Assembly (NCBI RefSeq): GCF_029227915.1
Contig: NC_079875.1
Coordinates: forward strand, 12,645,001 to 12,709,000
From: Hydractinia symbiolongicarpus
Lineage: Eukaryota > Cnidaria > Hydrozoa > Anthoathecata > Hydractiniidae
Direction: 5' to 3'
DNA length: 64,000 nt
This document shows, one piece after another, positions 79 to 6,265 of the stretch. The translations under genes and the position numbers were made by a program. The notes below the pieces were generated by a model that saw only the letters and a program-made list of their open reading frames with translations, was not told where the DNA came from and did not search any database. Position 1 is the first letter of the stretch. Every line of letters begins with the position of its first letter.

Positions 79-3000
79 TATGTCCTCGAATACAGTGCAA
101 GCCATGCCGTTATGGTTACATGAAAGATAGTAAAGGTTGCCAAACTTGTCAATGTAGACCACGAGGTAAAATTCTTTAATACTTTCATCAAATCATGTAT
201 TTTCTCATGAATCAAAATTACTTAACAAAGACTAGTAGTAATAATTCTGAACATGATATCTATAACAATTTAATGTGCTTTTATATAAAGAAAATATATG
301 GAATGCTTGTAAATCGCTATCTGACTTTAGTTTGTCCTTTGAGACGTTGTTTGCGACCTTGTCCAAATGGTTATGTAACAGATCGGAATGGCTGCAATAC
401 GTGCATTTGCAAACGAAATGGTAGGCAGTATGCTTTTAACCACAATTTTTTCTTGTTACATTGCAAGTAATATTTATCCTTGTCCCTTTGTATCAAGGAC
501 CTGTAATTAACTCTATTTTGCAATCTTTAAGAATAGCTAAGTAAACACAATTTTTTTTGTTTTCTGGCGTCCTGATAAAAATGCAATTTCATTTTATTAT
601 TAGAATGTCCTCAAGTATTGTGTAAACGACATTGCAGATATGGATTTGCTAAAAATGCTCAAGGTTGCCAGACGTGCACTTGCTTACCAAGAGGTATATA
701 AATTGCATTGATCTCTAAGTGTTATTAAATCGAGGGATCGGTATATTTATGATTCATAGCACAGACTAAGTGAATGTCCATACATGTATTTTAGTATGTC
801 CTCGAATACAATGAAAACCATGTCGTTATGGTTACATGAAAAGTTTTGATGGCTGAGAAACTTTTATCAGTATTAGTATTGTAGTTAGAATATGTGACCA
901 GAAACTGGTCACAAGCAGTCAATGCGTAAACGGAGGCAGTTATGTAACTCAAGAAATCACAATAGTAACTTAAGCCAGTGGGAAATATTTGAGTTCGATA
1001 CCTCGTTAAAAAACAAAAAACTTAAAACTTAAAATCAATTTTGAATGCAAAGCTCGCTTAAACGGATATGTATGATGGAAAGATGCTTGTGAAACATGTT
1101 AATGCACAAAAGAACTAACTTTTATTCTGCTCCGGTAAAATGAAAAAAGTTAACCACCTATTATAGTCTTATATAGAAATCTCGTTTCTCAGTTTTTTCA
1201 AAACATCTTCAGTTGTTTAAATGTTTCTAAGTATTGTATAAACGAAATTGCAGCTATGGATCTTTAAAAATATGCAGTGTAATGTTGTCAAAAGGTGTAC
1301 AAACTACGTTGTGCTTTGATATGCGAAATAAATTGTTTAGTAGTTCTTTTCATCAAGATCTTTTTTAAAGACCTCAAGAAACGCCTACATCTTTTTTTAG
1401 CATGTCCTTTGCTCAAGTGCAAACCATGTCGTTATGGTTACATGAAAGATAGTAATGGTTGCCAAACTTGTCAATGTAGACCACGAGGAGGTAAATTTCT
1501 TTAATATTTTTATCTAGTTGATGTAATTTCTCATGAATTAATATTATCCAACGAAGGCTAATTTTAATAATTCTGAACATGATATCCATAACAATTTAAT
1601 CTGTTTTTATATAAAGAAAATATATAGCATGCTCGTATCTGACTTTAGTTTGTCCTTTGAGACGTTGTTTGCGACCTTGTCCAAATGGCTATCTGACAGA
1701 TCGAAATGGATGCAATACGTGCATTTGTAAAAGGAAAGGTAGGGTATCCATTTAAAACCCAACCACTAGGCAATTTCATTAGTACTACTATTGTTTTTAA
1801 AATATCCTATTGCAAATTAGTCAATAAAAAGATAAGTGCTGACAGGTGTGCGTCTGCATGCCTTTTAGCATGTCCTTTACTCAAGTGCAAACCTTGTCTT
1901 CTTGGCTACATGAACGATAGAAATGGCTGTCAAACTTGTCAATGTAGACTACGACGTAAGTTAATTGGAAAATCTTTTTTTATTATCGGAGACTCTTATA
2001 GCCTGTTTTATTTGTTATAGTTTTGACAATACTAGAAATATTTAGATATCAATGAGCTAAAATTAATGTTCTTTACTCGTCAGAAATATACCTTAAGGGA
2101 ACTTATTTTGGCGGGAACTAATTTTGGCGGACGAAGGAAATCTAAAAAAAATTTAATTTTGGCGGGAACTAATTTTGGCGGATCAACGAAATTTTTAATT
2201 TTGGCGGGAACTTATTTTGGCGGGTGGCGGTTTTTTTTAATTTTGGCGGGAACTTATTTTGGCGGGTCAGCGGATTTTTTAATTTTGGCGGGAACTAATT
2301 TTGGCGAGTGAAGGATTTTTTCAAATTTCAACGAAAATTTTCTTTGGTAAAGATGTAGAAATAAGCATTACAAAGCAAAGAATTTTAAAACAAATACTAA
2401 AAATCTACTCTTCTTCATCGTCTATGATAATGTCAAATGCATTCCGACTAAAGTCTATGTCATCCTCGTCACGCGTGTACTCCTCTTCTTTGTCATCGTC
2501 ATTTTCGACTCGCACGTTGATGAAGCTATCCTTTAATAAATCTGGCGCATTGATTATGTCGGTTATGGGCTGAGTAATTACACTATTGCTTTCTGGCAGC
2601 GGTGATAGATCTTGAAAAGGGTCAAGGGATTCAAGTGAAGTGGATCCCATGCGAACTGCGTCGTAAATTCCAGATGCTTTCCACCCATTCAAAACGACTT
2701 CACGGCCATCTGCCGAAGTGATATGGTTATAAAACTGGAGGAGCCAACTTGCATGAAGAGGCTTGATGGTGGTCAGCTTTAATTGAATATTTATATCTTC
2801 GATCTTTTTGTTAAGGGATAGCTCTTTCTCGATCTGTTTTGAATACCATTCAGTGAACAAATTTCTCATGAATTGCTTGCAATGATTATTCACAGTAAGA
2901 TCCAAGGGCTGGAATATATGTGTCATGTTACTTGGAACCAAAACCAGGAAGATGTTGTTCTTCTTCAGCAATTCGGTAACTTCCTCAGTAATTTGTCCTC

Positions 3001-6000
3001 GAAAGACATCGAATATTAGAAGAGCAGCTTGCTTTGGGTTATTTAACTTCTTCCTCTGGTCTTCAACGTGCTTTAGAACGATCTCTTTGATGACTTTGAT
3101 GGATTCTTGTGTATTGCTGTAGTGTTTGGGATTAACGCTTAGTGAGAACGATTCGGGGAATTCAAACTTTGGGAGGCTTTGATTTGTTTTCCCCCCATAT
3201 ATCAGTTGCATTGGCAGAAAAGAACCATCAAGCGTAATAATAAAGGTACCAGTAAGGCATCTTTTGTCGGAAGATCCAACGATAGGGACGGACGATGAAC
3301 CCTTTTTCGCCATGGTGTGATTCATTCTTGGAACAAACTTAAGAGGTGTCTGGTCCAGATTCATAACAAGTTGGTGAGGGATGCTGTGTTGTTCGATGGT
3401 CGAAACAATATCGTGAAGAAATAGTAATTCGCACTCCTTTTTGGCTCCTTCAGTGATTTCAACTTTGGAGGTCGTTTTCATTCTTTTCTTGAAACCCATT
3501 CTCTTGAAGAGGCTTTTTGCCCAACTGTTATCAATTTTAATATGCCCCAACTCAAATTGAGGGTTTCGTGATATTAGAGCTTTCGCTGCAGCGGTTGCAA
3601 CTGTTCTTGAAACAACACCTCCTCGATTTCTCAGTGCAATTAAAAATCTTTGTACCATCTCATCTAGACTGCCAAGGAACAGAGGTCTACCGCGTTTCAA
3701 AGGAACAAATTTGGTTACCACGCTACGTTTTTCTCGGGTTGAATCTTTCAGCTCTTTTTTGTAAAGATTGCCAAATCTTCGAGCTGTACTCTCACTTAAC
3801 GGCCTGTCTTTGGTTTGAAACTTTGTGATTGCAGCCGCACCACCATGAATCGCAACATATTTTCCGATATCAAATCTTTCTTTTTCTGACCAACGGTTGT
3901 ATGATTTTTTGCCACTGGATTTAACATTTTCAGTCGCGTCTGTAACAGCTTCGTAGTCTAACGAACCAAGGGATGATTCTTGCTGGAAGTCAGTTGGTTG
4001 TGGGCCTAAAATGAATAAAACGAACCACTATGTAATTGCGAATTTTGACCAAAAATTAAAAATTTTCAAACAAAGAAAGAAACTTCTTCGCAGGTAGGTA
4101 TAACAAAAAAAAACATCAAAGAGAAATACTTACTTTGTTCCCTAGAACTGTTTGAAGGTGTTTCGTCTGAAGTTTTTTCCTTTTCAGCGGCCCTTTGTTG
4201 AGCTTCTTTCTCTTGTAATTTAGCTAACTTCCTGATGTAAGACATTTTGAAAGCCGGGAGATAAAAAAGGAAACGTAAGTTATCTGTATCCTGTATATTT
4301 ACTCGAACATAAACATTCCATTCACTTGGCCTATATTTACACTAAAAATCGAACAAAAACATTCTTTTTTTCTTGGCTAAGGCCCGTTTAGACTACCCAA
4401 TCGAACAAAAACATTCTTTTTTTCTTCGCTAAGGCCCGTTTAGACTAACCAATCGAACAAAAACATTCTATTTAATTGGGAAAGTTCGGTCTACACTGAC
4501 AAATAGAACAAAAACGTTCTATTTTCATGCTAGGCAATTAAAAAATCGATCGATTGACATTTTTGTTTTTCATCAGAGCTAGAAAAGAAAAGACGTCCAT
4601 ATGGCTTACAACAAGACGTTCGAGTTTACAGCTGCTGTCAGAGGATTCCATTATTATAAAACTTATTGGAAACCTGAGGAAAATCAATCACTGGACTGCT
4701 TTCATGAGAACAACAATGTTTTCGATAGATTTGCAATCAAAGTTTGTGAATTCGGAAATGACAAACCAGTTGGCCATTTACCCAAAGAAATCTCAAGGGT
4801 TACAAAATTTCTTCTGGACAGAGGAGCGTCTATGAAATCCACGTTGACAAGTGTACACTATCGAAGATCACCTCTCGTTCAAGGAGGCTTGGAGATCCCC
4901 TGTAAAATAACTGTTACTTTACCAGGGACAGTAAACAATCTTTTGGTTCTTGCAAGATACCAACAACTTGTAGAAGCCTTGTATACAGAGCCGAAAGAGG
5001 AATTGATTCTTGGTTCGTTCTTACATATTGCAGTTATTTTAGATGTCGTGGTTCCAACCGAAGAGAGACCAAAGCGTAAAAAAAATACAGCCAAAAGCCA
5101 AAGCAAAGAGACGAAAAAGCAAAAAGATATTCGAAACTTTTTTGGAAACACCTCAGCTGCACCAGCCCCAAAAAGGCAAAAAGTTAACAACAAACCTAAA
5201 AAGTCGTCACCATCGTCAAGCAAGGACTTAGAAATCATAAATATTGATTAAAAATTATCTTGTATTAGAGGTTTATTATGACATAATATTTCTAGCGCAA
5301 AGGTATATTTCTAAAAGATATAAAAAATTGAAAAAAAGTTGATTTTTGTCGATTTTTTAAGGGGAACTTATTTTGGCGGATCAACGAAATTTTTAATTTT
5401 GGCGGGAACTTATTTTGGCGGGTGGCGATTTTTTTTAATTTTGGCGGGAACTAATTTTGGCGGGTGAGTAAAATATTTAATTTTGGCGGGAACTAATTTT
5501 GGCGGATTTTGCCCCAATCCGCCAAATCCGCCAAAATTAGTTCCCGCCAAAATAAGTTCCCTTAAGGTAGTTAAAAAGTTTTATATGAGATGGCTTTGCA
5601 CAAAAATCAATTTGGGCAAATTATACTCCAGCTCGACATGCGCAAATGGATGCTAGCAATAAGATATCTTATTTCATCTTAAATTATTTATTGCGCTAAC
5701 GATAGTTTGCTCGAAACAGTATAATTCTTTGCACATTATATCATCTAAAACACTAGACAAAATATATTTTGCAAAACGTAGTGTTTCGCCATTTGACAAA
5801 ACGGGTAACCAATCATATGGCCAGTTCTTTGCAGCAGTCGGATTTCAAAAGTTTTAAATTTGCAGAGATGTAGGCTAATTAATTGAAGTCAAAAATAATG
5901 GAATAACCTAAAATCATAGGTTTGCTGTGAAAAACAACTGGACTTAAAAAGTCCGGAGTCCGCTCTACTTATATATAAACTGCTTTCCCAATTGCTCGTG

Positions 6001-6265
6001 GGTATACGAACTTCGAAATTCAGCCGGGCTTTGCATGTCTTGGATTGTAGACGGAAGGCTATCATCTTATTTGCTAAAAGGATCAGTATTTGCTATAGCT
6101 TGAAAAGTGTCCATAGAAGGATGGGTCCTATTTTTACGTTGAAAATGATTGCAACCCAAAGTATTTCTTCTAGGTTGCCCAACCCCATTGTGCAGATACA
6201 GATGTCCTATGGGATATGCAAAAACTGAAGACGGATGTCCAACATGCTCTTGTCTTAGACACTGA
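79..6265 (+). CDS. Antistasin-domain protein, 3' part of a multi-exon gene (5' end outside window)
   Basis: Eight exons, each encoding one antistasin-like domain: 79-165, 331-420, 604-693, 1401-1490, 1649-1738, 1869-1955 and a last exon 6174-6265; 87-92 nt each. All lie between AG acceptors and GT donors and all introns are phase 1, so domains can be added or lost without changing frame. Each exon reads as C-P-x(3)-C-x(2-3)-C-x(2)-G-[YF]-x(4-5)-G-C-x(2)-C-x-C, the six-cysteine antistasin/hirustasin pattern, known in leech and Hydra proteins; many members are secreted serine-protease inhibitors. The last exon keeps the pattern (CPTPLC...GCPTCSC) and stops at TGA 6263-6265. The long intron before it (1956-6173) holds a DNA transposon. 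No start, signal peptide or promoter is in the window. The domain call is firm; inhibitor activity and joining of all exons into one mRNA are inference. (Seven exons are listed; the eighth domain copy at 795 is broken and given separately.). Confidence 0.8.
795..870 (+). pseudogene. Broken copy of an antistasin exon
   Basis: Follows a TATTTTAG acceptor and matches the exon at 79-165 closely for its first ~50 bases (C-P-R-I-Q), but a TGA falls where the third cysteine codon region begins, and similarity fades before the GCxxCxC end. The ~80 bases upstream (713-794) also match 1-78, so exon and intron were copied together. Inclusion in an mRNA would truncate the protein. Confidence 0.7.
1040..1300 (+). 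pseudogene. Two decayed antistasin exon remnants
   Basis: Around 1041-1110 the DNA still resembles an antistasin exon (G-Y-[MV] region and a T-C-x-C-x-C-like end) but is out of frame. Around 1218-1300 it resembles the exon at 604-693 (S-I-V-x-T-K-L-Q-L-W-like reading with several substitutions, a stop and indels). Neither has a usable reading frame. They look like older rounds of the same exon duplication. Confidence 0.5.
2091..2311 (+). repeat. Left TIR and subterminal array of TTTTGGCGGGAACT repeats
   Basis: Five copies of TTTTGGCGGGAACT(A/T), each followed by a second TTTTGGCGG half, are spaced 40-50 bp apart between 2105 and 2311. The array translates openly, but only because of its repeats; it is not a gene. 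Subterminal repeats of this kind are usually transposase binding sites. The core TTTTGGCGGGAA also fits the E2F consensus. Confidence 0.85.
2405..4245 (-). CDS. DDE (pogo/jerky-type) transposase, two exons, complete
   Basis: Exon 1 is 4245-4134 (ATG, starts M-S-Y-I-R-K-L) and exon 2 is 4005-2405, joined in phase by a GT-AG intron; total 1713 nt, 570 aa. An acidic, coiled N-terminus is followed by a psq-like helix-turn-helix (Y-N-R-W-S-E-K-E-R-F... about residues 60-115), then a CENP-B-type second DNA-binding region ending W-A-K-S-L-F-K-R-M-G-F (about 140-210). The catalytic core follows, with D255 in NLDQTPLKF, D370 in LLIFDVFRGQ and D406 in FQPLDLTVN, a DD35D-like spacing. The C-terminus is strongly acidic. 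No internal stop, so it may be active. It shares its 5' region with the divergent HIRAN gene. Family: DDE_1 endonucleases (pogo, Tigger, jerky, CENP-B); cut-and-paste transposition is inferred from the family. Confidence 0.88.
4246..4600. promoter_or_regulatory. Shared 5' region between divergent transposase and HIRAN genes, with ~52-bp tandem repeat
   Basis: The two start codons face away from each other across 355 bp. Within it, AATCGAACAAAAACATTCT occurs at about 4347, 4399 and 4451, with a variant (AAATAGAACAAAAACGTTCT) at 4501; the spacing is 50-52 bp and the interspersed AAGGCCCGTTTAGACTA is shared by the first copies. No TATA box is obvious. A bidirectional promoter is inferred from position. 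Confidence 0.55.
4601..5251 (+). CDS. Transposon-borne HIRAN-domain protein with PIP-box motif
   Basis: Single-exon ORF of 216 aa. Residues about 7-120 form a HIRAN domain: FEFTAAVRGFHYYK, then C-x-H-E-x(2)-N-x-F-D-x-F-A-I-K, then V-G-H-L-P-x-E-I-S-R and SPLVQGGLEIPC. HIRAN domains are known in HLTF/Rad5 DNA translocases, where they bind 3' single-stranded DNA ends at stalled forks. Here the domain stands alone, with no Snf2 helicase or RING. The tail is basic (PKRKK 157-161, PKRQK 190-194) and holds QKDIRNFF at 174-181, a full Q-x-x-I-x-x-F-F PCNA-interacting motif. It lies inside the transposon, divergent from the transposase. A nuclear, DNA-end- and PCNA-binding accessory role is inference; the domain and motif are visible. 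Confidence 0.85.
   Translation: MAYNKTFEFTAAVRGFHYYKTYWKPEENQSLDCFHENNNVFDRFAIKVCEFGNDKPVGHLPKEISRVTKFLLDRGASMKSTLTSVHYRRSPLVQGGLEIPCKITVTLPGTVNNLLVLARYQQLVEALYTEPKEELILGSFLHIAVILDVVVPTEERPKRKKNTAKSQSKETKKQKDIRNFFGNTSAAPAPKRQKVNNKPKKSSPSSSKDLEIINID
5361..5567 (-). repeat. Right subterminal array and TIR
   Basis: A leading GGGAACTTATTTTGGCGGA unit, then three + oriented TTTTGGCGGGAACT units, then the terminal inverted unit (TTAGTTCCCGCCAAAATAAG) and the end GTTCCCTTAAGG. The inner units have the same orientation as the left array; only the outermost ~41 bp is inverted. Confidence 0.85.

Follow-up and report, generated by a model that had tools for sequence, protein, structure and literature searches.

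The 64,000-nucleotide stretch of Hydractinia symbiolongicarpus DNA analysed here (the window) contains a DNA transposon in which a transposase gene is accompanied by a gene for a stand-alone HIRAN protein. The locus raises the question of what such a protein does for a transposon, and whether it could connect transposition with DNA replication. An earlier note on the window had placed the gene between terminal inverted repeats (TIRs), divergent from a pogo-like transposase gene, had read a consensus PIP box in its basic tail, and had proposed that the protein ties transposition to replication forks.

The element, its genes and its copies

The element occupies positions 2091-5567 of the window (3477 bp) and has perfect 41-bp TIRs that start CCTTAAGGGAAC. 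The left arm (2091-2131, plus strand; CCTTAAGGGAACTTATTTTGGCGGG...) is 100% complementary to the right arm (5527-5567, minus strand). A TA target-site duplication lies on each side (2089-2090 on the left and 5568-5569 on the right), as read directly and in agreement with the other copies. Subterminal arrays of a 19-nt repeat (GGGAACTTATTTTGGCGGG) with a TTTSGCG core were found on the left (2097-2308, plus strand, spacing mostly 42 bp) and on the right (5362-5506, plus strand). TTTSGCG arrays were subterminal in 8/8 window-lineage elements tested (the window element, L051 and L053-L058), with 12-20 occurrences against about 1, counts that are inflated by tandem repeats; they were absent from the four other elements tested, two of the sister group and two of Tigger type. 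The window repeat can also be read as TTTTGGCGGGAA, which we take to resemble an E2F-type site. The E2F consensus TTTSSCGC occurred 0-2 times, without enrichment, in the eight window-lineage elements tested. E2F sites in the TIRs were rejected on this ground and on the absence of the arrays from sister and Tigger-type elements. The 19-nt repeats are more probably sites for the transposase.

The transposase gene is on the minus strand and has two exons (exon 1, 4245-4134, with a GTAAGT donor; exon 2, 4005-2405) separated by an intron at 4133-4006. It encodes 570 aa, with a DDE_1 domain (40.1 bits) in exon 2. The splice is supported because the NCBI LOC130640840 protein of H. symbiolongicarpus is of equal length and only one residue apart. 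The predicted catalytic triad is D255-D370-D406, with 35 residues between the second and third D. HTH_Tnp_Tc5 scored 14.5 bits against 22.2. With its TA duplication, its TIRs and a DDE_1 domain carrying three acidic residues, the element appears to group with pogo-type elements by target, ends and domain. The transposase C-terminus (window 2405-2450) ends NAFDIIIDDEEE, which is SIM-like. Such ends were found in 14 of the 74 full-length transposase relatives listed, against 3.05 by shuffling, an excess too weak to support a conclusion.

The HIRAN gene (4601-5251, plus strand) encodes 216 aa. Its PIP box, QKDIRNFF, comprises residues 174-181 (5120-5143, plus strand), and a SIM-like motif, IINID, forms the C-terminus (residues 212-216; 5234-5248, plus strand). 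The two genes are separated by a divergent intergenic region (4246-4600) with 51-52-bp repeats at 4316-4521.

Antistasin-family cysteine repeats flank the element (window 603-693, 1400-1489, 1859-1957 and 6170-6262; PF02822 above cut-off in 4/4 stretches tested), which seems to sit within an array of antistasin-like exons.

In the genome searched (480.9 Mb), a HIRAN protein identical to that of the window was found in 22 full-length copies, the window's own included. Twenty of the other 21 copies were taken with their flanks, a selection made through HIRAN. Twelve of the 20 matched all 3477 bp of the window element letter for letter, and for this reason the window element is considered to have moved recently. 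The remaining eight comprised two copies with one mismatch, one with nine mismatches, one minus 9 bp, three internally deleted and one in which the right end was not located. With the element ends located as an exact 24-mer, both ends were found in 19/20 of these HIRAN-selected copies, with HIRAN between them; the flanks were TA in 19/19 and differed beyond TA.

At 99-100% identity, 4 of the 24 HIRAN matches were without a transposase match within 5 kb, and none of the 20 transposase matches was without HIRAN. HIRAN was kept (whole or in part) and the transposase lost (all or part) in the internally deleted copies L036, L044 and L047 and in L023 and L024; copies of the converse kind, with HIRAN lost and transposase kept, were absent from the same 20 transposase matches, the numbers being small and the deleted copies having been found through HIRAN.

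Pairing of HIRAN and transposase in related elements

The genome was searched for HIRAN near transposase genes within 5 kb, as the earlier note had suggested. The sets compared were 150 scored HIRAN matches and 81 transposase matches (82 rows minus the second piece of a listed place), and the counts are lower bounds. HIRAN lay within 5 kb of at least 59 of the 81 transposase matches listed (0.26 expected by rough random placement), and the two genes were divergent in 59/59 pairs. Among the 22 unpaired matches were the 14 that make up a sister group (36-42% identity). At the sister loci L059 and L060, a diverged HIRAN (37% and 35%, respectively) was found in the same place, inside TACCTTA repeats. 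The homology of the L059 protein to the window HIRAN rests on tblastn (E 3.7e-21), no Pfam family, HIRAN included, being above cut-off. The N-terminus of this protein (L059 995-1714) is Cys/His-rich and zinc-finger-like by eye.

At 10/10 loci read (two of the sister group and eight of families B-E), both genes lay between inverted repeats. Eight of the ten were flanked by TA at both ends; L052 and L056 each had one damaged end. The arrangement that the earlier note had described for the window, with HIRAN inside the TIRs and divergent from the transposase, thus extends to the relatives, and the circumstance that it had named as contrary, HIRAN copies always outside TIRs, is false.

The earlier note had also proposed a check of selection. 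For three between-family pairs (A-B, E1-E2 and two Tigger-type copies), on which the estimate rests, HIRAN pS was 0.76-0.83, near saturation, and pN was well below it (0.27-0.30); within families C and D differences were few and were set aside. By this comparison of codons, HIRAN is under purifying selection between families. HIRAN and transposase distances were correlated (Mantel r 0.89 for 17 pairs, eight of them matched through contigs of equal size; r 0.69 for 14 pairs, with the three most diverged left out).

A public-assembly protein database contained 826 HIRAN relatives and at least 249 transposase relatives (7995 candidates scored). Contig sizes were compared for the best 120 relatives listed per protein, equality of size not being proof of the same contig. 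Among contigs of at least 10 kb, 5 of the 34 with HIRAN were exactly as long as one of the 40 with transposase (0.003 by shifted lengths); with the limit lowered to 2.5 kb, 8 sizes coincided, where the comparison gave 0.65 on average and 5 at most. It is very probable that the pair also exists beyond the Hydractinia assembly. Two scans of viral_contigs, one with alignment A1 and one with the transposase exon, gave no viral relatives. The association of the two genes is strong, and HIRAN is an integral gene of the window lineage, not stray cargo.

A search of the genome with the Pfam HIRAN model identified an HLTF-like host exon and a repeat family with a 192-aa HIRAN ORF. At two loci of this family (L061 and L062) the TIR is CAGTGGAATCCC, TA flanks both ends, and HIRAN and a DDE_1-type ORF diverge. 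The L061 transposase is whole and contains HTH_Tnp_Tc5 and DDE_1, by which L061 was assigned to the Tigger type. In L061, the divergent HIRAN and transposase ORFs (3420-3995 and 4001-5605) have start codons 5 bp apart if the first ATGs are used, so that the 5' leaders would overlap. In a third type, a HIRAN ORF lies antisense between two transposase exons (L067 2809-3201, 131 aa, 20.7 bits; L068 2231-2674, 148 aa, 21.7 bits; cut-off 24.7), so that one gene of the transposon is nested in the other. L067 had been chosen as a control, from a family seemingly without HIRAN. The HIRAN codons of the L067 type gave a pN/pS of 0.46 against 0.68 and 0.90 in shifted frames. A CENP-B/Tc5-type DNA-binding domain was found in the L061, L067 and L068 transposases.

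Among the 150 DDE_1 matches scored, of 778 candidates, 74 had HIRAN within 3 kb, all divergent (0.7 expected); within 5 kb, 75 had a divergent and one a same-strand HIRAN. When the L067-type list was added, 36 of the 74 DDE_1 matches without a partner at 5 kb gained an antisense upstream HIRAN within 3 kb (0.16 expected); of the others, 2 had a same-strand HIRAN and 36 were still unpaired. Some DDE_1 families may truly be without HIRAN.

Domain, pocket and tail of the HIRAN proteins

The window HIRAN protein matches PF08797 above cut-off (32.5 bits). AlphaFold2, run with an alignment of 52 sequences, predicts the HLTF HIRAN fold over residues 1-140; mean pLDDT was 71.9, with values of at least 80 per ten-residue block over residues 1-110 and mostly below 60 past residue 140. 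In the part of PMC4666394 consulted, the HLTF HIRAN cavity holds one single-stranded dinucleotide between Y72 and Y93. Window Y18 and F41 align with these residues; the Y72 position is Y in 45/52 and the Y93 position F in 50/52 relatives of the window HIRAN. Among 120 Tigger-type HIRAN relatives, the corresponding positions are mostly A and H (61/72 and 65/74, respectively, counted in rows where the pattern was located), which makes it unlikely that all transposon HIRANs bind 3' ends as HLTF does. As described in a portion of PMC7804152, the HIRAN domain of yeast Rad5 binds PCNA itself and can do without a 3'-OH; reading of DNA ends is therefore not common to every HIRAN.

Conservation of the tail was assessed in 52 of the 120 listed HIRAN relatives, a non-random set made up mostly of top matches. 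The mean fraction of rows with the majority residue was 0.74 over the HIRAN domain. In the tail it was 0.33 at residues 146-173, rose to 0.81 in DIRNFF (176-181), fell to 0.21 at residues 182-211 and was 0.59 in the final five positions. By its sequence the window QKDIRNFF conforms to the canonical PIP box Q-x-x-h-x-x-a-a. I177 was present in 51 of the 52 relatives, D176 in 47, F181 in 47 and F or Y at 180 in 50; Q174 was present in only 22. By family, the region reads QKDIRSFF in B, DIRVMF in C, DIRDML in D and KDIRSFF or KDIRNFF in E. Of the full Q-x-x-I-x-x-F-F motif on which the earlier note had relied, the D-I-x-x-a-F core is thus kept and does not vary freely; the Q is free (22/52), and FF has been lost in two families.

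The listed relatives of at least 185 aa (n = 105) share ancestry and are not independent trials, and some are fragments. Among them, DI[RQKH]x[FYW][FYW] was found in 77 (0.03 in shuffled tails), the full Q-form PIP in 27 (0.13 shuffled), a SIM pattern within nine residues of the C-terminus in 55 (0.77 by shuffling; the pattern misses ETICID-like ends), and PIP core and SIM together in 47. The SUMO-interaction-like C-terminus (IINID, VITID) was absent from the earlier note. IINID has a hydrophobic core beside an acidic residue, as expected of a candidate SIM, and the C-termini of related HIRANs read IITIDSD (B), VIVID (C), TIVID (D), TIIID (L057) and VIEID (L060). No SIM was seen in L058, which stops right after the PIP core, or in L059, which ends in an acidic run.

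The earlier note had described a stand-alone HIRAN-PIP protein. HIRAN proved constant; the PIP box is missing from the HIRANs of the two sister elements (L059 and L060, without any h-x-x-a-a motif) and of three Tigger-type elements. In these three, the transposases terminate at the very C-terminus in QSSIKDYFK, QKDITDFFK and QTVITDFFSK, which read as canonical PIP boxes. Among the 120 Tigger-type HIRAN relatives listed, 2 had a Q-type PIP, 9 a loose PIP in the last 60 residues, and none DIRxFF or a C-terminal SIM. Conversely, a Q-type PIP or DIRxFF was seen in 0/74 relatives of the window transposase that reach 480 aa (among the best 120 listed). A loose h-x-x-a-a pattern, present within 120 residues of the C-terminus in 47 of the 74, is taken as the conserved L-x-x-F/Y-Y-N of the catalytic region. 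Among the window-lineage and Tigger-type elements read, either HIRAN or the transposase thus carries a clamp motif, intact or eroded. The assignment of PIP boxes to the Tigger-type transposases rests on the motif, and pogo is the experimental precedent: in the section of a review consulted (PMC5371812), the pogo transposase is a reported PCNA interactor, a PIP box is conserved in Tigger and Lemi1, and the functional relevance of such transposase motifs is called unclear.

These distributions bear on the possibility that HIRAN partners the transposase structurally or in DNA binding, acting in TIR recognition, complex assembly or nuclear import, with the tail motifs secondary. Harbinger elements provide a parallel, in which a Myb-like protein partners the transposase. 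HIRAN persists even where it has neither PIP nor SIM, its divergence tracks that of the transposase, and its tail in the window protein is lysine-rich (by eye), all of which a partner role would accommodate. It would leave unexplained why DIRxFF and the C-terminal motif are conserved in an otherwise free tail and why the PIP box is on the other protein in Tigger-type elements; to our knowledge, HIRAN domains are not sequence-specific binders. We regard a partner role of this kind as rather unlikely.

A second possibility is that a fragment of host HLTF was captured and rides along as neutral cargo, its PIP-like string being due to chance. Transposons often carry pieces of host genes, and the genome has an HLTF-like HIRAN exon (C3:13870189). 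In a tree of 19 HIRAN rows (midpoint root), this exon grouped with human HLTF (100/99) and the Tigger-type set was apart from the rest (99/100). HLTF (host and human), the window clade and the sister proteins came out in one fork; 11/16 inner branches of the tree were open, and the window clade was not recovered as one. This tree is compatible with one capture, with several captures and with an ancient origin from an HLTF gene, and neither a single HIRAN origin nor an origin from host HLTF was adopted from it. A chance motif and neutral cargo were rejected because of the pairing, a layout fixed across diverged families, pN well below pS and the excess of DIRxFF over shuffled tails. We hold capture as cargo to be highly improbable, its neutral part being strongly disfavoured.

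A proposed role for HIRAN and its place among known systems

The gene is associated with transposase and TIRs across several families, is conserved, has a predicted HIRAN fold and carries the two motifs; binding to PCNA, SUMO and DNA and an effect on transposition are what we infer. The reading that we prefer, with an even balance of confidence and doubt, is that the transposon-encoded HIRAN accessory protein is an adaptor that tethers transposition ends or complexes to PCNA, possibly in its SUMO-modified form. The HIRAN domain would bind DNA ends or single-stranded 3' ends, at stalled forks or as 3' overhangs left by the transposase. Tc1-mariner-like transposases leave short 3' overhangs, and end binding is attractive for the window lineage because such overhangs are expected and both pocket aromatics are kept. 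The disordered tail would grip the sliding clamp through the PIP core, and in most families read the C-terminal SIM would bind SUMO, much as the Srs2 tail reads SUMO-PCNA. Transposition complexes, excised ends or the donor gap could in this way be brought to replicating or PCNA-loaded DNA, and repair or timing could be steered so that the element gains copies. The variable Q, the loss of FF in families C and D, the sisters without PIP and L058 without SIM count against an adaptor, as do the SIM pattern in only 55 of the 105 relatives, the altered pocket of Tigger-type HIRANs and the behaviour of Rad5 HIRAN.

The same motifs would also suit a protein that acts against the host, occupying PCNA/SUMO or DNA ends and so blunting repair, checkpoint or silencing. 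PIP and SIM would compete for SUMO-PCNA, and the window family is recent and multicopy. A decoy, however, would not have to be linked one-to-one to every copy of the transposase, and these data point to no host target; we consider an action of this kind improbable.

The adaptor reading can be taken further, tentatively and with more doubt than confidence. Cnidarian, and perhaps other animal, pogo-type transposons would be two-gene elements in which a HIRAN 'end and fork' protein accompanies the transposase. Clamp contact would be obligatory, its motif placed on the transposase in Tigger-type elements or on HIRAN, together with a SUMO motif, in the window lineage. A dedicated SUMO-PCNA adaptor would then time excision to replication, or route the donor gap or ends to fork repair, and yield copies.

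If a conserved clamp adaptor is encoded as a protein of its own, transposition and clamp contact could be mutated independently, and HIRAN domains would gain a setting outside Snf2 helicases. Because related elements also have a HIRAN partner, the link of transposition to DNA replication can be put to the test; the many bit-identical copies and apparent recent activity of the window family make an assay realistic.

Harbinger, CACTA and MuDR are two-gene DNA transposons. The window element resembles them, and the ciliate Tec/TBE elements (PMC7325037), in combining a transposase with a second element-encoded protein; in the portion of PMC7325037 consulted, the second protein of Tec/TBE is not named as HIRAN. 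A transposon HIRAN gene was undescribed in the titles and abstract openings searched, Repbase and subscription literature being outside this scope, and the term HIRAN was absent from the text consulted of a pogo phylogeny (PMC7325037), a review (PMC5371812) and the Hydractinia genome paper (PMC11067881).

The window protein differs from HLTF and Rad5 in being a stand-alone protein of 216 aa, without Snf2 motor or RING and with about 20% identity, and in being transposon-encoded with a PIP and SIM tail. According to the part of PMC10127746 consulted, Srs2 ends in a tandem receptor that recognises SUMO-PCNA and consists of an atypical PIP followed by a SIM. The window tail shares this order of PIP-like core, disordered linker and SIM, a likeness of motif layout for which no homology is claimed. 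It differs in that the window protein has no helicase and in that the Srs2 PIP keeps Qxxh and is without FF, mostly the reverse of what was found here.

With pogo and Tigger, which are Tc1-mariner-related DNA transposons, the window element shares the TA target, the TIRs and a DDE_1 transposase with N-L-D-Q ... QPLD motifs; unlike them, the window lineage adds a HIRAN gene and has its PIP core on HIRAN, not on the transposase. The two-gene plan of a DNA transposon is already known; what is new is the HIRAN accessory protein and the place of the clamp motif.
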